A stretch of 64,000 bases of DNA from Adhaeribacter swui (GTDB lineage Bacteria; Bacteroidota; Bacteroidia; Cytophagales; Hymenobacteraceae): assembly GCF_014217805.1 (NCBI RefSeq), contig NZ_CP055156.1:248001-312000 (forward strand). Reading direction: 5' to 3'. Below are positions 2,396 through 25,579 of this stretch, piece by piece. The number at the start of each line of letters is the position of its first letter. Positions within the stretch are counted from its first letter, which is position 1. The notes below the pieces were generated by a model. The model saw only the letters and a list, made by a program, of their open reading frames with translations. It had not been told where the DNA came from and did no database searches. Position numbers and translations under genes: made by a program.

Positions 2396-4243
2396 ATGAA
2401 AAAAAATTATGCTTTAGCCGTTTTTTTCGCTTTCCTGATTACTCCCTTACTGGCGGCTACCAATTCATATCGTTTTACGATAGACCTGGTTCAGGTGCAG
2501 GACGATAAAATTAAGGTTAGTTTACAAACCCCTACCTTACAAACTACCGAAACCGTTTACAACATCCCCAAAATGGTACCCGGCACGTATTCCGTAGATA
2601 ATTTTGGCCGATACGTATCCGATTTTAAAGCATATGACCACACCAACCGTTTGCTTACTTCCGAAAAGCTGGATGATAACCGCTGGAGAATAAAAAATGC
2701 CACGCAGCTAGCCAAAATAACCTATCTGATTGATGATACTTTTCAGGATTTAGCGGCGGAGCATCAAATTTTTGAACCGGCGGGTACCAACATCGAGGCT
2801 AATCAAAATTTTTTAATTAACAACCACGGGTTTATGGGCTATTTCGATAACCTGAAGCGTCTGCCCTACGAGGTTACCGTTTTAAAACCCCAAAATTTTT
2901 ATGGTTCCACGGCTTTAAAGGCTATTAAAACCACGCCCACCGCCGACACTTACCTGGTGCCGGATTACATGGAACTGGTTGATTCGCCGATAATGTATAA
3001 CGTACCCGATACCACCGTTTTAAAAATTGGGGGCGCCGACGTTTTAGTTTCGGTGTATTCGCCCAGCAAAGTAGTAAAAGCCAACTACATTGGCACTACC
3101 ATCCGCTCTACGCTGGAAGCCCAAAAAAATTACTTAGGCGGCACCTTACCCGTAGAGCGTTACGCCTTTTTAATTTACTTATCGGATAAACCAAATAAAA
3201 CCGGGGCCTATGGTGCCTTGGAACATTCGTATTCGTCGGTTTATTACATGCCCGAAATGGCCCCGGAACGCATTGCCCAGTTAATAGTTAGTATTGCAGC
3301 CCACGAGTTTTTTCATATTGTTACCCCTTTAAGCATTCACGCGGAGCAAATTCATGATTTTGATTTTAATAACCCGCAAATGTCGCGGCACTTATGGTTG
3401 TACGAAGGCGTAACGGAGTATGCTGCTACGCACGTGCAGGTAAATCAAAAGTTAATTACGCTGGATGATTACTTAAATAAATTACGTGCTTACATTATCG
3501 GGGCCAGCCGCTACAACGACACCTTGCCTTTTACCACCATGAGCCAAGGCGTACTCGAAACGTACTCCCAGGAGTACGGCAATGTATACCAAAAAGGAGC
3601 CCTAATTGGCTTAGCCCTGGATCTTAAATTACGGGAATTATCCGGCGGGAATTATGGCGTCCGTAACCTTATGAATGCCTTAGCTGCTACTTACGGCAAG
3701 CATAAAGCATTTACCGACGAAGAATTGTTCGATAAGATTACCGCGCTTACCTATCCGGAAATCCGGGCTTTTTTCCGGCAGTACGTAGAAGGAAACCAGC
3801 CTTTGCCTTACACCGACTTATTTAAATTAGTGGGCATAAGCTACCAGCCGGTTGTTAAAGAAGAAAGAGTAAGTTTAGGTCCGTTTCATTTAAATTTTGA
3901 TCCGGAGTCGCAGAAATTTATAGTGGAAGAAGTAGCTGATGGCAGCACTCCCCCAATAAAATTAAATTTACGCTCCGGCGATCAGCTACTGGCTATAAAT
4001 CAAAGAACACTTACCCAAGAAACAGTCAATAATATCCTAAGAGACGAAGTTTACGCACATAAACCCGGCGATGAGATAAAAGTCTTAATTGGGCGGCCCA
4101 ATAAACGGGATAAAATAAAAATTAAAAAACTTACCACTCCATTGGTAGAAACCACTGAAGAGAAAAAGTATTTAATTGCCGTCGACCCTACAGCTACCCC
4201 CCAGCAAAAAATTTTAAGGGATACCTGGTTGTATAGCAATTAG
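2396..4243 (+). CDS. M61 family metallopeptidase with C-terminal PDZ domain
   Basis: An exported zinc aminopeptidase of the glycyl-aminopeptidase (M61) family. An N-terminal signal peptide runs to about residue 21 (ITPLLAA). An N-terminal beta domain precedes the catalytic domain, which carries HEFFH at residues 303-307. The downstream WLYEGVTEYAA supplies the third zinc ligand, probably Glu337 (Glu341 is the other candidate). A PDZ-like domain follows around residues 490-580, containing LRSGDQLLAIN. The length of 615 is typical for the family. It probably trims peptides in the periplasm; substrates are unknown. It stands alone, divergent from the barrel protein gene. A 9-bp hairpin lies 86 bp downstream. 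Confidence 0.93.
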   Translation: MKKNYALAVFFAFLITPLLAATNSYRFTIDLVQVQDDKIKVSLQTPTLQTTETVYNIPKMVPGTYSVDNFGRYVSDFKAYDHTNRLLTSEKLDDNRWRIKNATQLAKITYLIDDTFQDLAAEHQIFEPAGTNIEANQNFLINNHGFMGYFDNLKRLPYEVTVLKPQNFYGSTALKAIKTTPTADTYLVPDYMELVDSPIMYNVPDTTVLKIGGADVLVSVYSPSKVVKANYIGTTIRSTLEAQKNYLGGTLPVERYAFLIYLSDKPNKTGAYGALEHSYSSVYYMPEMAPERIAQLIVSIAAHEFFHIVTPLSIHAEQIHDFDFNNPQMSRHLWLYEGVTEYAATHVQVNQKLITLDDYLNKLRAYIIGASRYNDTLPFTTMSQGVLETYSQEYGNVYQKGALIGLALDLKLRELSGGNYGVRNLMNALAATYGKHKAFTDEELFDKITALTYPEIRAFFRQYVEGNQPLPYTDLFKLVGISYQPVVKEERVSLGPFHLNFDPESQKFIVEEVADGSTPPIKLNLRSGDQLLAINQRTLTQETVNNILRDEVYAHKPGDEIKVLIGRPNKRDKIKIKKLTTPLVETTEEKKYLIAVDPTATPQQKILRDTWLYSN

Positions 4244-4616
4244 TACCGCAACACCGTAGCAAATTTTTGAAAGCTAGAATTTAGTGGAATAACGTAGTAA
4301 AGTTGTTATGCATTTTGCTGCAAAAATTTAAAATCAGCTATAAGCAATTACTTTTATTTGATTAATCCGCTGATTTTTAAAAGTGAAAGCATGAAGTCTA
4401 AATCAGAAAATTTTAAAATTTTATCGTGTTTTAGCTACTATGGTAATAAAAAGCAGAATAGTTAAAATCTACTCCGCTTTCGCCGGGAAAGACTTAAACA
4501 GATATTCCGTTTAAATTGCCAGCTCCGTTCAAACAACTAACTCCCGAAAGCGTTTATTTGTTGAGTATTTCTTACTCAAACCCATTTACCAGGTATTACA
4601 TCAGAATTGCCTTCGC
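4244..4616. other. intergenic region, no gene seen
   Basis: 373 bp, A/T-rich. AAAATCAGC (4330-4338) pairs with GCTGATTTT (4369-4377) across a 30-nt loop and is followed by TTAAAAG, a weak terminator candidate for the M61 gene. A/T-only palindromes lie near 4410-4425. No convincing promoter or cobalamin-type riboswitch was found before the TonB receptor. Confidence 0.5.
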
Positions 4617-6929
4617 ATGCGCCATTATTTTTACCTATTAATTACGTTTATTAGTTCGTGGGCGATTGGCTTACCGGCCGTCGCTCAAAAACAATTTACC
4701 ATTAGCGGCACCATTCGGGCCGATGATAACAACGAAAGCTTAATTGGCGCTTCGGCTTATGTTGCCGGCAGCAACGTGGGCGCTACTACCAACGCCGAAG
4801 GATTTTACATGTTCCGGGTAGTGCCCGGTACTTACACCCTACAATTCTCCTACATTGGCTACGAAACCGTTACGCGGCAAATTACGGTGTCGCGCAACCT
4901 AAAGCTCAATATAAACCTGCCCACTGCCGGTAACCAGTTAAAAGAAGTAGTAGTGGAAGGCAGCGGTTTGCAGCAAAAATTTTCGGGGGCGCAAATGAGC
5001 GTAGAACAACTTTCCATCCGCGAAGCCAAGTTATTACCTGCCTTGTTCGGCGAAGTAGATATTTTAAAAACTTTGCAATTAAAGCCGGGCGTGCAGTCGG
5101 GTGGTGAGGGAACTTCGGGTTTATACGTGCGCGGTGGTGGCCCCGATCAAAACTTATTTTTGCTCGACGAAGCTACCGTTTACAATGCCTCGCATTTATT
5201 TGGTTTTTTCAGCGTGTTTAACTCCGATGCGGTGCGTAGCGTGGATTTGTACAAAGGTGGTTTTCCGGCGCAGTTTGGGGGGCGCTTATCCTCGGTGGTA
5301 GATGTAAAATTACGCGAAGGCGATAAACAAAAGTTTGGCGCAACGGGCGGTATTGGCCTGATTGCTTCGCGGTTAACCCTGGAAGGCCCGATAAAAAAAG
5401 GTAAATCGTCGTTTATTATTTCGGGGCGACGCACCTACGTTGATGTATTTACGCGCATGGCCAACCGGGCCAACGAAGACGATCCGGAATACAACCCAAT
5501 TCCGGATTATTACTTTTACGACTTAAACGCCAAAGCTACTTTTGATCTCTCGCCGAAAGATCGTTTGTTTGTGAGTGGTTACTTAGGCAACGATATTTTT
5601 GGGTTCCGGAACAGTGGTTTTAAATTTGATTTCGGTTGGGGCAACAAAGCCGCTACGCTTCGCTGGAACCATACTTTTCACCCGAAATTATACGCTAATA
5701 CCAGCCTATCTACCTCGAGTTATAAGTATTCCATCGCTAATAAATTGGATATTTTTAGCTTTAACCTACGCTCCGATATTCAGGATTACGCCGCAAAAGT
5801 TGATTTTGATTATCTACCCAATAACGCACATAAGGTAAAATTCGGAGCGCATTATACTTACCACAAGTTCTTGGTGGGCCGATTGCAGGCGGGAGCCGCG
5901 GATAACAGCTTTAATTTTGGCGCCGGATCTAAGTACCGCGGCAATGAAATTGGCGTGTACCTGGCCGATGATTTTCAACCTTCCCCTATCTGGTCGTTCC
6001 AGTATGGTTTGCGTTATTCCGGATTTTTAAATGGCAATACGTATTATCATGCTTTAGAACCCCGGGCGGCCGTGCGTTACAGCCTCTCCGAAAATACGGC
6101 TTTAAAAACCAGCTTTACCAGCATGCGGCAATACATCCATCTGGTAAGTAATTCGGGTGCCAGCTTACCTACCGATATTTGGTATCCTTCTAACCCGGTA
6201 GTTAAGCCGCAACGTTCTACGCAGGTAGCTTTAGGGTTTAGCCATTTATTTAATGGCGGACAGTTTCTGTTTACCCACGAGTTGTACTACAAATGGATGA
6301 AAAACCAGATTGATTTTCGGGATGGCGCACAACTTTTTGTGAATGATAACTTGGATGAAGAATTTTTATTTGGCCGTGGCGATAGTTACGGCAGCGAATT
6401 TTACCTCGAAAAAAAAGAAGGTCGCACCACGGGTTGGCTCGGCTACACCTTGTCGTGGTCTAACCGGAAGTTTGCCGAAATCAACAATGGCGTGCGCTTT
6501 CCTACGCGTGCCGATCGGCGCCACGATATAACCGCCGTGGTACTGCACCAACTTAATAAAAGCTGGCAAATAACGGGCACCTGGGTTTATGGCACGGGTA
6601 GCGCTTATTCTTTGCCGGTAGGGCGTTTTGGCTTGCAAGGCCAACCCGGCGACGATATTTCGGTGGTGCCGGTTTACCTCAACCGCAATTCTTTCCGGCA
6701 GGCAGCTTACCACCGCATGGATATAGGCGCAGTTTACAAGTTACGCCCGCGGCACGGCGAGTCGGATTTAACTTTCAGCGTGTACAATGCCTATAACCGC
6801 CGCAACCCATACTTTGTGTATTTCGACGAAGAAAAAGACAAACAGACCGATTTGCCTTTGGCTTTTAAAGCCAAGCAGGTTTCCTTGTTCCCGGTAATTC
6901 CATCTATAACATATAATTTTAAATTTTAA
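4617..6929 (+). CDS. TonB-dependent outer-membrane receptor
   Basis: A 770-residue receptor for TonB-driven uptake. Signal peptide about 1-23 (GLPAVAQ), then a carboxypeptidase-regulatory-like beta-sandwich (about 25-105, with GASAYVAGSNVGATTNAEG). Next come the plug (about 140-240, with LYVRGGGPDQNLFLLDEA and FPAQFGGRLSSVVDVK) and a 22-strand-type barrel ending in aromatic YNFKF. It is shorter than SusC proteins and lacks a SusD partner. Its partner is the DUF4249 lipoprotein gene 6 bp downstream, a common Bacteroidota pairing that suggests one transcript. The ligand cannot be told from sequence; peptide, siderophore or other organics are possible. Confidence 0.93.
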   Translation: MRHYFYLLITFISSWAIGLPAVAQKQFTISGTIRADDNNESLIGASAYVAGSNVGATTNAEGFYMFRVVPGTYTLQFSYIGYETVTRQITVSRNLKLNINLPTAGNQLKEVVVEGSGLQQKFSGAQMSVEQLSIREAKLLPALFGEVDILKTLQLKPGVQSGGEGTSGLYVRGGGPDQNLFLLDEATVYNASHLFGFFSVFNSDAVRSVDLYKGGFPAQFGGRLSSVVDVKLREGDKQKFGATGGIGLIASRLTLEGPIKKGKSSFIISGRRTYVDVFTRMANRANEDDPEYNPIPDYYFYDLNAKATFDLSPKDRLFVSGYLGNDIFGFRNSGFKFDFGWGNKAATLRWNHTFHPKLYANTSLSTSSYKYSIANKLDIFSFNLRSDIQDYAAKVDFDYLPNNAHKVKFGAHYTYHKFLVGRLQAGAADNSFNFGAGSKYRGNEIGVYLADDFQPSPIWSFQYGLRYSGFLNGNTYYHALEPRAAVRYSLSENTALKTSFTSMRQYIHLVSNSGASLPTDIWYPSNPVVKPQRSTQVALGFSHLFNGGQFLFTHELYYKWMKNQIDFRDGAQLFVNDNLDEEFLFGRGDSYGSEFYLEKKEGRTTGWLGYTLSWSNRKFAEINNGVRFPTRADRRHDITAVVLHQLNKSWQITGTWVYGTGSAYSLPVGRFGLQGQPGDDISVVPVYLNRNSFRQAAYHRMDIGAVYKLRPRHGESDLTFSVYNAYNRRNPYFVYFDEEKDKQTDLPLAFKAKQVSLFPVIPSITYNFKF

Positions 6930-20370: not shown

Positions 20371-20480
20371 AAATTTAAAATTGTAAGTTCATTGGTAGTA
20401 CCACCAGATTTTACCAGTTTATTATTTTCTTAAGCAATTATTTTTTTCACGTTTAGGTTAACAACTTTTCATTTTTTATT

Positions 20481-20540
20481 AAAAGAGAAACCAGTTAAAG
20501 ACAAAATTTTAGAATTTTGCCTTTAACTGGTTTCTCTTTT
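20481..20540. terminator. very long bidirectional terminator hairpin
   Basis: A perfect 20-bp stem (20481-20500 with 20521-20540) has an inner CAAAATT/AATTTTG helix in the loop and A/T tracts at both ends. It lies between the convergent namZ and repeat-protein genes. Confidence 0.85.
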
Positions 20541-20569
20541 AGAGAATTATTAAAAAAGCATTCCCCGGT

Positions 20570-23500
20570 TTACCGATTGAGCAGTAGCTTGGATGTGAGC
20601 ACTTCATCTGCCGCTTGCACCCGTATAAAATACAAGCCATTAAGCAGTTTAACATCTGGTTGCCACTCCCATTGTTTTTCCTGACCCGCTTCTACTGAGC
20701 CTTGGTACAAACGAGCCACTTCTCTTCCTTGGCTATCATAAACCAGCACGTTTATTAATTGGGTTTGCGGTGCGGTATATTGCACCGTTAGTTTATCCTG
20801 TAATGGATTAGGATAGGCTCTTACAGGTTCCGGTAAAATTTGCGTTTCCGTTTGCGTGGTAGTTCTCGTTATGATTTCGGTATTTTCCTTTAAATCAGGA
20901 GAAATCTGTAAAAGCCAGTAATCCATGTTTCCCCAACTAGCCTCGGTTTTATCGCCACCGATGCCGGAGTTAGAACGTCCGCCCAGCACATAAGCTCCTT
21001 CTTTCGTCTGCCAAACCCCACGTAGTTCATCCGTTTTGTCGCCGCCGTACCGTTGATCCCATTGGCGGTTTCCTTGGGCATCGGTTTTAATCAGCCAGTA
21101 ATCACTTTCTCCCTGACTTTCCTGACTTTTGTCGCCGCTCACTCCTGAGGTAGAACTGCCCGCGAGTACGTATTCTTTATTTGGTGTTTCCATTAAAGCT
21201 TGTAAGGTTTCGGTACCCTGGCCTCCGAAGCGCTTATCCCATATTTTAGAGCCGGCAGAGGTAATTTTAATAACCCAATAATCTTGTTCCCCTTGATTGG
21301 CCTGACTTTTATCACCGCCTTTTCCGGAAGTTGAGCTTCCCGCTAGTAAGTAATTATTATCCGAAGTTATTAAAAACGCATTTAGCTTGTCGTTGCTGGG
21401 TCCGCCGTATCGTTTCTCCGTTATCAGCGATCCTGATTCATCAATTTCTACTAACCAGTAATCCCAACCGCCCCGTTTATCTTGCGAAATATTGCCACTG
21501 GGGCCTGAATTGGTGCTGCCACCCAACAATATATTGCCCAATTTGGTGATAGCCAATGTTTCCAGTTCTTCTTCCTCGCTACCGCCAAAACGTTTGTCCC
21601 AAACCTTTTCCCCGGCCGGTGTAACCCGAACGACCCAGTAATCTTTTTTACCTTGAGTTGGTTGCGATTTGTCGCCGCCTGCCGGCGAATCGCTGTAACC
21701 GCCCAACAAATAATCGCCATTTTTTAAAATAGTAATTGCCCGTAAATCTTCGAACCCACTACCGCCATAACGTTTATCCCACAATTTGGTACCATGGCTA
21801 TTTATCTTCACAATCCAGAAATCCCGGTCGCCCCTACTGCCTTGGCTTTTATCGCCGCTTTGGTTCGAATTAGAACTACCGCCTAAAATATATCCACCAT
21901 CTTGAGTTGGCATTATTACGTTTAAATAATCGTTTGCCGTGCCGCCGTATCGTTTATCCCAAACTTGTTTTCCATTTTTATCGGTTTTTACTACCCAAAA
22001 GTCGTAACCGCCAAAGCTGGCTTGGGTTTTAGTACCGTTTTTACCGGAAAGCGAATGCCCACCCAGCAAATAACCGCCATCCGTTGTTGGTACGGCTGTA
22101 GTAAAGCCATCTAAATTAGTACCGCCGTAAGTTTTGTTCCAGACAAGTTGATGGGATGCTGCTTTTTCCTGAACGAGCAGCATCCAGTAATCCGTAAGCC
22201 CTTTGTTGGGAGCAGTTTTATCATTATTTACCTCAGAATCGGAAGAACCACTTAGTAAATAATTGTTTTCTGCAGTAAGAAGTAAAGCAGTAAGGTTATC
22301 GTTTTTATTGCCACCATAAGTTTTTTCCTGGATTTTAACTCCATTGGTGCTGATGGTGACTAACCAGATATCGGACAAGCCCCGGTTATCTTCTTGTTTA
22401 TCCCCATCCTTGCCCGAATACGAAGTACCACCCAAAACATAATTGCCATTGGCCGAAATTAAAATTTGGGACATATTTTCGTGGTTGGTACCCCCAAAAG
22501 TTTTATCCCAGATTTTATTACCTTGTAAATCAGTTTTTACCACCCAGAAGTCAGTAAAAAACTCCCGACGGTACATTTCACCCTTTTCGCCGCTTATACC
22601 GGAGGTAGAGCTACCGCCAAGTAAATATCCGTCTGCGGTTTCTTGTAAAGCCCGCAACTGATCTGAGCCATTGCCGCCAATGGTTTTGTCCCATAACTTT
22701 TTACCTTGTCCATCTATTTTGATAATCCAGTAATCGAAAAATCCTCGGCTTGGCTCACTTTTGTCCATGCTGGCTCCTGACCAAGAATAACCACCTAATA
22801 GGTAACCTCCATCCTGAAGAACCAAAATATTTGTTAAATTATCAACGCCATTATTCGTACCGTTAACACTGCCGCCAAAAACTTTATCCCATATTTTGTG
22901 GCCTTGCTCGTCAATTTTTAAAATCCAGTAATCTTCGGCTCCCTTATTAGCCTGGCTTTTTTCGGCGCCAGAGCCGGAGTTAGAAGTACCGCCGAGTAAA
23001 TACCCACCGCCCGGTGCAGCCACCATGGTAGTAAGTAAATCACCGTTATTACTTGTTTCGTTGTTTTTACCCCCGTAGGTATTATCCCAAACTTTATTCC
23101 CGGATGCATCCAGCTTTACAATCCAGTAATCGTAAGTATTTAGCGGCCCGCGGTTAGCTTCACTTTTATCCCCGTTTTTGCCGGAAGAAGAATATCCCCC
23201 GATCAGGTATCCGCCATCCGGAGTAAGCAATAAACTAGTAAGGTGATCGGCCTTTGTTCCGCCTAAGGTTTTATCCCAGATTTTGTTGCCTGCTTTATCT
23301 GTTTTTATAACCCAATAATCGTAATCATTGCTTTTATTCGCCTCGCTTTTATCCTGGTTTTTACCCGATAGGGAACTACCACCTAGCAGATAGCCGCCAT
23401 CTGGGGTTTTTATAGTAGCTGTAAGATAATCCTGGTTGTTTCCACCAAATGTTTTGTCCCATTGTTTGCTGATACTGCCCACCATAAATGTTTTAATTAC

Positions 23501-25111
23501 CAGCGGGGCAGCCAAATAGGTGGCATTTCCGGACTGGGAAGCTTTTACGGTAACCAGGCCGGCACCCGTTAATGTTACTACGTTATTCTTTATGGTGGCC
23601 GGACCAGATACAATGGTTAAAGCAACCGGAAGATTAGAACTGGCGCTCGCTTGTAAATTAAAGGGTTTATCGGTGATTAACTTACTTACCGGAACATCAA
23701 ACGTGATTGCCTGCCCATTTTTGCCTTCATCTTTTATTTTAACTATCCAGAAATCTCCGCGTAAATTTTCGTCGGAACTAATATCCCGGCTAGCTTCTGA
23801 TTTATCAGCAGTTTTACCCGATTTAGAAGAACCACCCAATAAATAATTACCATCGCGGGTAGTTATAATGGTAGTTAAAGCGTCTTTGGAGGTACCACCA
23901 AGGGTTTTATCCCAAATTATTTGGCCATTGGCATCTAATTTCAGGAGCCAGTAATCAAAACCGCCGCGGCTCGCCTCACTTTTTTCTGCTGATACCGGCG
24001 ATTCAGAATAACCGGCAACTAAATAGCCTCCATCCGTACTGGCAACCAGACTAGATGGGAAATCGTAATTTTGGCCACCGTACGTTTTATCCCAGATTTT
24101 ATTTCCTTTCGGATCTAATTTTAACAGCCACATATCGGAGGCTCCCCGGCTCGAATCACTTTTAACACCACCTATCCCCGATTCTGACCAACCAGCTACT
24201 ACATAATTACCATCAGGCGTAGCCAAAAGAGCCTGTATAATATCTAATCCGGTTTCATTATACTCTGTTAGTAAATACCTGCCCCATTCCGGATTGCCTT
24301 TTCCATCAATTTTTGTTAAAAAATAATATTCCTGCGACATTCCTCCGGCTAAAAAACCATTATCCGGGGTGGGTATCAAAGCCGTTAGTTCATCCATAGC
24401 TTCTGTACCCAAGGTTTTATCCCATTGCTTTATACCGGATTCATCAATTTTTAAAATCCAAAAGTCATAAACGCCATCTGCGGAGTAGCCAATAGTGCCC
24501 TCACTTTTATCTCCACTTTTGCCAGATGTAGAAGTACCACCCAGTACAAATCCACCATCGGGCGTGGCCACTATAGTTGCCAATCGATCATAGGCCTTAC
24601 CACCGTAACTCTTATCCCACATTTTCTGGCCTTCGGCGTTTATTTTAACTACCCAGTAATCATACAAACCTTTACTGGGCGCTGTTTTATCGCCACCTTC
24701 TCTGGACAGGGAGCTGCCGGCTAATAAATAGCCACCATCTTTGGTAGGCACAATTCCCACCAATTCGTCCGAACCCGTTCCTCCAAAGGTTTTATCCCAA
24801 ACTTTCTGTCCTTTATCATCGACCCGCACAACCCAGTAATCCTCCTTTCCGCGGTAAGCTTCACTTTTATCTTTGCTAACACCAGATAACGAAGTCCCAC
24901 CTAATAAATAGCCCCCTTGTGCGGCCAGTACAATTGTATTAAGATTATCAGCCTTATCTCCGCCAAAGGTTTTATCCCAAATTTTAGTTTGAGCAAAGGT
25001 GTTATAATTAAAGTAAAGGCAAAGCGCAAGAGTAAACGCAGGTCGTAGTAACCAGGAAAGCAGGTTAATTGCTATTACTGATGGATTGATTGGAATTAAT
25101 TTTGTTTTCAT
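20570..25111 (-). CDS. giant secreted repeat protein with type IX sorting domain
   Basis: 1513 residues. A signal peptide ends near residue 40 (NTFAQ). Then 21 repeats of about 60 residues follow the pattern WDKTFGG..D.L..I..T.DGGYLLGG.S.SG..GDKSE...G..DYW.VK.D..G.K. Repeats 1-7 span 45-466. An Ig-like linker (467-550, with TGAGLVTVKASQSGNATY) interrupts, and repeats 8-21 span 551-1410. The C-terminal 85 or so residues are a type IX sorting domain (AYPNPLQDKLTV to LTSKLLLNR). Each repeat looks like one beta-propeller blade; 7 and 14 repeats fit one plus two seven-bladed propellers (inference). Repeat 4 is shortened and repeats 14 and 19 lose the first Trp. Function is unknown; surface adhesion or glycan binding is plausible. 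It is a single gene. Confidence 0.88.
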   Translation of the reverse strand: MKTKLIPINPSVIAINLLSWLLRPAFTLALCLYFNYNTFAQTKIWDKTFGGDKADNLNTIVLAAQGGYLLGGTSLSGVSKDKSEAYRGKEDYWVVRVDDKGQKVWDKTFGGTGSDELVGIVPTKDGGYLLAGSSLSREGGDKTAPSKGLYDYWVVKINAEGQKMWDKSYGGKAYDRLATIVATPDGGFVLGGTSTSGKSGDKSEGTIGYSADGVYDFWILKIDESGIKQWDKTLGTEAMDELTALIPTPDNGFLAGGMSQEYYFLTKIDGKGNPEWGRYLLTEYNETGLDIIQALLATPDGNYVVAGWSESGIGGVKSDSSRGASDMWLLKLDPKGNKIWDKTYGGQNYDFPSSLVASTDGGYLVAGYSESPVSAEKSEASRGGFDYWLLKLDANGQIIWDKTLGGTSKDALTTIITTRDGNYLLGGSSKSGKTADKSEASRDISSDENLRGDFWIVKIKDEGKNGQAITFDVPVSKLITDKPFNLQASASSNLPVALTIVSGPATIKNNVVTLTGAGLVTVKASQSGNATYLAAPLVIKTFMVGSISKQWDKTFGGNNQDYLTATIKTPDGGYLLGGSSLSGKNQDKSEANKSNDYDYWVIKTDKAGNKIWDKTLGGTKADHLTSLLLTPDGGYLIGGYSSSGKNGDKSEANRGPLNTYDYWIVKLDASGNKVWDNTYGGKNNETSNNGDLLTTMVAAPGGGYLLGGTSNSGSGAEKSQANKGAEDYWILKIDEQGHKIWDKVFGGSVNGTNNGVDNLTNILVLQDGGYLLGGYSWSGASMDKSEPSRGFFDYWIIKIDGQGKKLWDKTIGGNGSDQLRALQETADGYLLGGSSTSGISGEKGEMYRREFFTDFWVVKTDLQGNKIWDKTFGGTNHENMSQILISANGNYVLGGTSYSGKDGDKQEDNRGLSDIWLVTISTNGVKIQEKTYGGNKNDNLTALLLTAENNYLLSGSSDSEVNNDKTAPNKGLTDYWMLLVQEKAASHQLVWNKTYGGTNLDGFTTAVPTTDGGYLLGGHSLSGKNGTKTQASFGGYDFWVVKTDKNGKQVWDKRYGGTANDYLNVIMPTQDGGYILGGSSNSNQSGDKSQGSRGDRDFWIVKINSHGTKLWDKRYGGSGFEDLRAITILKNGDYLLGGYSDSPAGGDKSQPTQGKKDYWVVRVTPAGEKVWDKRFGGSEEEELETLAITKLGNILLGGSTNSGPSGNISQDKRGGWDYWLVEIDESGSLITEKRYGGPSNDKLNAFLITSDNNYLLAGSSTSGKGGDKSQANQGEQDYWVIKITSAGSKIWDKRFGGQGTETLQALMETPNKEYVLAGSSTSGVSGDKSQESQGESDYWLIKTDAQGNRQWDQRYGGDKTDELRGVWQTKEGAYVLGGRSNSGIGGDKTEASWGNMDYWLLQISPDLKENTEIITRTTTQTETQILPEPVRAYPNPLQDKLTVQYTAPQTQLINVLVYDSQGREVARLYQGSVEAGQEKQWEWQPDVKLLNGLYFIRVQAADEVLTSKLLLNR
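20882..23461 (-). repeat. coding tandem repeats 8-21 (14 units of 180-198 bp)
   Basis: Fourteen in-frame units encoding residues 551-1410. Units 15-21 are all exactly 60 codons (180 bp) and form the most regular block; units 8-14 vary from 60 to 66 codons. Confidence 0.85.
23714..24979 (-). repeat. coding tandem repeats 1-7
   Basis: Seven in-frame units encoding residues 45-466, with lengths 60, 60, 65, 46, 64, 60 and 67 codons. They are separated from the later array by the 252-bp linker at 23462-23713. Confidence 0.85.
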
Positions 25112-25579
25112 TTTTATTTCATAGTTTATTAGAAAAGGGTATACACTAGGTAAAAAGAATAAGCTTGTAACAACCTTTAGGAGATAAAACTTAGAGCTGG
25201 GATAGCAGAGCGCATCAGGTTATAAGCAGGTAAAATGGCTGCTAGTTTATAAAAAGCATATACTTGTTATATAGTTAAATACTACAATTCACTATTGATA
25301 CATCCCTTTGATGGAGATACTATTTTGTAAATATCAGGATGCTTAATGGAGCAGCAACTTATTAGTAGAAATGCACGGTACACATAATTAACAGTAAAAA
25401 GAATTATTGTAGTTAAGATTCCAATTTATTCTTTTTGGTTGCGTTGCTTAGCTTTATTTTTTTCACCAGTTACTTTATATTCCATTTAAATTAAATTTCA
25501 GCAATCGGATAAAAAGCAAAAGGCCGGAAGATTGCTCTCCCGGCCTTATTATGCATGTAAAATTTTAAATTTTTAAAAA
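25112..25579. other. intergenic region between repeat-protein gene and lpdA
   Basis: 468 bp containing the leader of the repeat-protein gene, the lpdA terminator (25520-25547) and an A/T element. I see no gene and no clear -7/-33 pair for the repeat-protein gene. Confidence 0.5.
25520..25547 (-). terminator. lpdA terminator
   Basis: An 8-bp stem AAGGCCGG/CCGGCCTT; on the minus strand it is followed by TTGCTTTTT. It lies 33 bp past the lpdA stop. Confidence 0.75.

Follow-up and report, generated by a model that had tools for sequence, protein, structure and literature searches.

A type IX cargo protein of Adhaeribacter swui with a predicted triple seven-bladed propeller

An intact open reading frame on the minus strand of a 64,000-nucleotide stretch of Adhaeribacter swui DNA (NZ_CP055156.1, positions 248,001 to 312,000; hereafter the window) starts with ATG and encodes a protein of 1513 residues, for which a triple seven-bladed propeller with the order 7 + Ig-like + 7 + 7 is the best reading. 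This architecture, proposed in an earlier note on the same DNA, is well supported, resting on predicted models for propellers 2 and 3 and, for propeller 1, on alignment of its seven units to those of propeller 3. The propellers are of a kind already known (SBBP/CylK), and their triple arrangement on a type IX cargo is a variant of it. On balance, we consider it probable that this protein is anchored at the cell surface after type IX export and presents three CylK-type propellers that bind ligands via one loop face. The gene and its parts are as follows.

20570..25111, minus strand: triple-propeller type IX cargo gene, 1513 aa (open frame)
24992..25111, minus strand: signal peptide, residues 1-40, predicted cleavage before Gln41 under the Q-rule (by-eye reading)
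23714..24979, minus strand: propeller 1, residues 45-466, seven units (unit HMM and seven-unit alignment with propeller 3)
23462..23713, minus strand: probable Ig-like linker, residues 467-550 (free of units, same place in paralogues, weak intimin matches)
22151..23461, minus strand: propeller 2, residues 551-987, seven units (unit HMM and predicted model)
20888..22141, minus strand: propeller 3, residues 991-1408, seven units (unit HMM, predicted model, junction statistics and nearest-neighbour test)
20579..20815, minus strand: type A type IX sorting domain, residues 1433-1511 (PF18962 and TIGR04183 above cut-off)

The earlier note had counted seven WDK..GG units before the linker and fourteen after it. 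An HMM of the unit returned the same numbers, with seven units at residues 45-464 (envelope to 466) and fourteen at 551-1404, and the 21 units gave independent E-values of 1e-9 to 1.6e-31 in a search of the window protein alone. Because the HMM was built from 17 of the protein's own repeats, those 17 match by construction; the units outside the seed (4, 5, 7 and 21) were found at E-values of 1e-9, 5.6e-18, 1.9e-24 and 5e-22, respectively. The count of exactly seven before the linker stands by HMM but not by motif alone, as a loosened WDK..GG pattern recovered 20 of the 21 unit starts (6 + 14) because unit 5 (about residues 283-339) is devoid of the motif and unit 4, judged by eye, is short with its long loop gone. 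Each unit is predicted to run from a K-I-W-D-K-T-F strand through a loop, a second strand and a DGG turn to a Y-L-L-G-G strand, followed by a long loop, a D-Y-W-V-V-K strand and a turn. Like other propellers, the repeat block opens with a strand that would serve to close the last blade. The repeat part had no Pfam model above cut-off, and the earlier note did not recognise it as a named family. However, it is of the SBBP/CylK kind, with CylK being found by phmmer at E 7e-26 and by a profile of the seven-unit alignment at E 3e-44, while the same profile matched proteins named 'Bagel' and 'Cell surface protein' less strongly. The repeats also match the SBBP repeat beta-propeller lipoproteins of the LipL53 family (NF047494) with 127.4 bits in six stretches, although this score lies below the cut-off of 400 and the window protein differs in being a type IX cargo with three propellers.

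Structure prediction, which the earlier note had suggested for its inferred propellers, gave seven-bladed rings for propellers 2 and 3. The model of propeller 3 with the sorting domain (m561758a0a8a4) was built on an alignment of seven sequences taken from the window and from four loci with seven units each (L001-L004), and formed a closed seven-bladed ring of 28 propeller strands with a mean pLDDT of 82.6, reaching about 90 over the propeller. Compared with solved structures, its best five rows were all CylK (Z 45.3-46.1, 2.2-2.3 A, 380-391 residues), with the top match at Z 46.1 and 2.2 A over 390 residues and the next structure at Z 30.6. A second model (meba80f917bec) comprised propellers 2 and 3 and the sorting domain with an input alignment covering propeller 2 only; its mean pLDDT was 73.2 and its pTM 0.51, with propeller 2 being stronger and propeller 3, without alignment rows, moderate. 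Residues 4-438 of this model (propeller 2) matched CylK at Z 43.8 (next best 30.7), and residues 452-862 (propeller 3) matched Photorhabdus lectins at Z about 28. Propeller 1 shares 43% identity with propeller 3 across seven aligned units.

That the fourteen-unit block is continuous, and that confidence in the second half of the two-propeller model is only moderate, raises the question of whether the block forms one larger ring or a solenoid rather than two rings; designed relatives named 'Bagel8' suggest, by name only, that other blade numbers are possible. However, the two parts of the model match solved seven-bladed propellers separately and hence represent two separate rings, and relatives exist with single seven-unit blocks. 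Moreover, among 93 fourteen-unit blocks a gap of at least two residues was found at the junction of units 7 and 8 in 96%, compared with 0 to 3% at each of the twelve other junctions. In the window protein this short junction insert corresponds to residues 988-990, directly before propeller 3. The position of these extra residues indicates two rings, and we regard the single larger ring or solenoid as very improbable.

The stretch between propellers 1 and 2 (residues 467-550), the linker of the earlier note, is free of units, and its Ig-like nature is probable. A profile of 12 linker sequences matched intimin, an Ig-like protein, at a weak E-value of 0.021 (6tpl). The window copy had no match to a Pfam family, and among the 12 copies two families were matched weakly, in two copies and one copy, so that no named Ig family could be assigned from Pfam. 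The Ig-like identity is kept at probable because the intimin match is weak and Pfam is empty for the window copy. Such a domain might serve as a hinge between propellers. Tandem copies of the Ig-like linker were also seen near single-propeller genes in two other genomes (G001 contig 12, 33458-34732; G006 contig 7, 52589-53854).

The sorting domain proposed in the earlier note was confirmed as type A by curated cut-offs in both Pfam (PF18962, 33.7 bits against a cut-off of 27) and NCBIfam (TIGR04183, 35.3 bits against 23), and the genome encodes type IX components, with SprA at 2392 bits and the PorU sortase at 1413 bits, both above cut-off. The signal peptide was called by eye from the translation, with its cleavage site set by the Q-rule given in literature abstracts. 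The protein would cross the inner membrane via this signal peptide and the outer membrane via the type IX system, where the PorU sortase would cut it and the product would probably stay anchored on the cell surface.

In line with the three-propeller proposal, and contrary to the outcome that the earlier note had named as refuting it, unit numbers in relatives fell predominantly on multiples of seven. Stretches of four genus genomes and two loci of a fifth contained 248 unit-bearing ORFs, of which 94 touched stretch ends and were dropped. Among the resulting 154, seven units were found in 20, 14 in 32, 21 in 51 and 28 in one (104 of 154 being multiples of seven), while 20 units were found in 18 and other values in 32; some of the 7 and 14 counts may be halves of broken 21-unit genes, and the counts do not represent independent events because the proteins share ancestry. 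Two adjacent ORFs, 936833 (7 units) and 938626 (14 units), in an array described below look like such halves of one broken gene. When a sorting domain and a signal-like start, loosely defined, were also required, 124 ORFs were left, the adjacent pair not among them, and 92 of these have 7, 14, 21 or 28 units. Nine of the 32 others have their first unit before residue 25 and were counted as fragments because there is no room for a signal peptide. The remaining 23 carry 12 (one), 13 (three), 19 (one), 20 (seventeen) or 22 (one) units, and in 20 of them the missing degenerate unit or units can be seen by eye in gaps. By the same inspection, one of the two missing units is visible in the 12-unit ORF and none in one 13-unit ORF, while the 22-unit ORF has one unit split in two.

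The same preference was seen outside these genomes. Low-copy members of the genus had seven units in seven of eight ORFs and six with a gap in the other. Other genera of the family contributed 29 unit-bearing ORFs, of which the 15 complete in their locus comprised 13 with seven and two with fourteen units, the 14 cut ORFs left out having counts that include 8, 13 and 15. Across a phylum-wide draw, 34 of 296 genomes (own one included) matched at E <= 1e-20, and 29 loci from other genomes across the phylum had seven units in 27 cases and six in two, as counted with an HMM re-estimated on those same ORFs. Four distant loci with weakly scored units (12, 6, 6 and 5 in L005, L006, L007 and L008) and the locus L239, which has an Ig-like match and sub-threshold unit scores, were left out of the counts. 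The latter shows 13 sub-threshold unit-like matches with about 50-residue spacing (2623-5658) and perhaps represents another, distant propeller type. Architectures among relatives include 7, 14, 7+Ig+7, 7+Ig+14, 7+Ig+7+Ig+14, GEVED+7 and FG-GAP+TIG+14, all in steps of seven. One locus (L141 4048-7209) combines GEVED domains, a single propeller and a sorting domain with a partial match to peptidase M6, and in another (L119 2353-7440) FG-GAP repeats, which are another propeller type, are fused to TIG domains and 14 units. In a published survey, highly repetitive propellers include such numbers as 15 and 47 (PMC9218822).

Conservation of blade position was compared in the 46 proteins with exactly 21 units among the 124. 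In propeller 3, 314 of 322 units had their nearest neighbour in another protein at an identical blade position; propeller 2 reached 174 of 322 and propeller 1 reached 112 of 322. The ratio of within-position to pooled entropy was 0.71 in propeller 3 (0.93 in blade-order shuffles), compared with 0.88 in propeller 2 and 0.90 in propeller 1 (0.92 in shuffles). All units with a partner at least 80% identical (34, 45 and 179 in propellers 1, 2 and 3) had that partner at the same position, indicating a blade order preserved among close relatives. Of the 60 repeat columns, the eight that vary most in propellers 1 and 2 (45, 12, 10, 31, 46, 9, 8 and 41) fall in the blade-to-blade loops and the loops between the second and third strand, and all lie within the 23 loop columns assigned to one face (hypergeometric 2e-4, with the assignment made after the fact and from strand order and the CylK description rather than coordinates). 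In propellers 1 and 2 those loops averaged 2.35 bits of entropy, whereas the opposite turns averaged 1.74 bits and the other columns 1.32 bits. Counting against a ligand-binding reading, it is in the loops that most propellers vary most, and in the three closest protein pairs propellers 1 and 2 were not clearly faster than propeller 3.

Agreement at four-fold codon sites is 0.345-0.372 among units of one gene and only slightly lower, 0.321-0.364, among units of different genes, and this small difference indicates that most divergence is old. Recent blade shuffling, blade amplification or gene conversion found little support, both from these sites and from the best within-gene unit pair being only 81% identical in DNA. 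Old homogenisation is possible because adjacent blades within a protein are more alike than blades between proteins in propeller 1 (0.553 vs 0.511) and propeller 2 (0.527 vs 0.472), the corresponding values in propeller 3 being 0.477 and 0.476. Whole-propeller duplication left no visible signal, as mean identities among propellers 1, 2 and 3 in register 0 and in shifted registers differ by at most about one point.

The family is expanded in its own genome, where a hand list holds 32 repeat-bearing loci, broken ones included, and 31 of the 94 type A sorting-domain matches (93 above cut-off) sit on repeat-family loci. One same-strand array (L065-L068, contig 3, 933592-981836) consists of 13 family ORFs, each carrying 7, 14 or 21 units, and contains no other ORF of at least 90 aa in between. 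The closest paralogue (L206 6491-11038), about 78 kb away, is 57% identical over its full length and has the same 7 + 14 units. Three loci of this genome (L081, L083 and L078) hold broken or truncated family copies, one of them interrupted by a stop codon. In the stretches examined, ORFs of five or more units numbered 32 in G000, at least 33 in G003, at least 29 in G004 and at least 48 in G005, while G001, G002, G006 and G007 had 5 to 29 matches; within the genus, matches range from 5 to 246 per genome. At the locus itself, LpdA and NamZ of G004, the closest genome by LpdA identity, are 97% and 90% identical to their counterparts and lie about 300 bases apart without a propeller gene (window 20371-25579; L195 4776-5071), indicating that the gene is present or absent within the genus. 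No propeller gene was found across the 16 kb surrounding LpdA in six genus genomes. A clean mobile insertion was rejected, as the intergenic sequences agree only at their ends and no target-site duplication was seen. Neither a defence gene (PADLOC empty at E 0.01) nor a phage gene (one PHROGs match of unknown function, E 1.4e-4) was supported. Just downstream of the propeller gene, between it and NamZ, a long near-perfect inverted repeat (window about 20481-20540) looks terminator-like by eye. Related repeats are also encoded in two phage records (MT838419 and KF114878; one a 5.3 kb record, one a Leptospira phage) and on plasmids of halophilic archaea (Halorussus, Haladaptatus and relatives), where some carry an annotated PGF-CTERM sorting domain; for many related plasmid genes the annotation is merely hypothetical protein.

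The closest solved relative, the C-terminal propeller of CylK (7fh6, 7fh7, 7fh8, 7ron, 7roo), likewise has seven four-stranded blades and long internal loops, and passages of the CylK literature describe a calcium site at each blade junction and a requirement for Arg105 from the N-terminal calcium domain (PMC8916777). The phmmer alignment, with numbering anchored on residues named in such passages, pairs column 46 with CylK Tyr473, column 12 with both Glu374 and Phe499, and the conserved acid of column 11 with Asp440, and it places Leu438 in an insertion. Columns 46 (Tyr473) and 12 (Glu374) rank fifth and second of 60 in variability. By the face assignment above, the variable loops of propellers 1 and 2 lie on the side that holds the active site in CylK. 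The overlap of that site with the variable columns is not a simple one, because Asp440 is on conserved column 11 and Leu438 in an insertion. A secreted enzyme that uses its propeller face as CylK does would fit with this kinship, the conserved acid aligned with Asp440 and the relative with a partial peptidase M6 match. However, the enzyme CylK pairs a single propeller with an N-terminal calcium domain, whereas the window protein has three propellers without such a domain: its first unit starts at residue 45, four residues past the predicted N-terminus Gln41, leaving the domain with the needed Arg105 absent. In addition, propeller 3 has Arg in the aligned blade where CylK has Tyr473, in a column that is variable. 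The Asp440 match does not speak for the CylK enzyme in particular because the column 11 acid is kept in most units (Asp 78%, Glu 11% in propellers 1 and 2, where column 47 is Asp in 94%). We therefore regard a CylK-like enzyme as quite unlikely.

A structural surface material, in which triple propellers build a surface layer, matrix or stalk and loop variation is neutral drift, seems somewhat unlikely to us. It would account for the many copies that a genome encodes of large, repetitive and exported proteins, for the mostly old divergence at codon sites and for an Ig-like spacer that adds length, but not as readily for the clustering of variation in loops on one face, for the blade identity preserved in propeller 3, or for match numbers differing so strongly within the genus. 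The surface ligand-binding function that we favour instead would proceed as follows. The cell surface would present propeller 1, the Ig-like spacer and then propellers 2 and 3 in direct succession, and in each propeller the first strand (K-I-W-D-K) would complete the last blade and so close the ring. Calcium may stabilise the rings via the acidic column 11 of most blade-to-blade loops, because this acid sits in the loop where CylK has its blade-bridging calcium. Ligand contact would likely be made by repeat columns 6-12 and 31-46, which form the loops on one face. About 30 sister proteins may bind different ligands, such as a glycan, a matrix or a neighbour-cell molecule, given that the loops of propellers 1 and 2 vary widely between paralogues, while the more constrained propeller 3, adjoining the sorting domain, may be a constant stem or docking part.

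Two systems offer functional analogies for such binding. The seven-bladed PLL/PHL lectins of Photorhabdus, for which a passage describes sugar sites between blades (PMC12203525), share the fold (Z about 28-29 on propellers 2 and 3); they show only 8-14% identity in fold alignments and are absent from the sequence searches that found CylK. The HNWD sensors of Podospora (het-d, het-e) are described, in part of a published account (PMC12222747), as paired predicted seven-bladed propellers with hypervariable sites on the binding face. By contrast with the window family, which steps in sevens and shows mostly old divergence, these are WD40 receptors inside the cell whose repeats vary in number and undergo strong concerted evolution. 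Among the open-licence papers listed in literature searches, no title or abstract opening describes a type IX cargo of several propellers or such an expansion, and the sole propeller mentioned in PMC9143113 is that of PorE.

A bolder extension, which we consider unlikely, is that of a bacterial repertoire of variable and constant receptors, in which dozens of surface proteins, many in tandem, would each display a pair of diversified propellers on a third, more constant one at the anchor side, with ring number shifting by whole sevens, and recognise neighbours, prey or glycans. As about one third of the type A type IX sorting domains of one genome sit on one family, the surface role of this family represents a testable question. 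The family also provides a natural experiment in propeller evolution, in that one genus steps through 7, 14, 21 and 28 units with the values between largely skipped.
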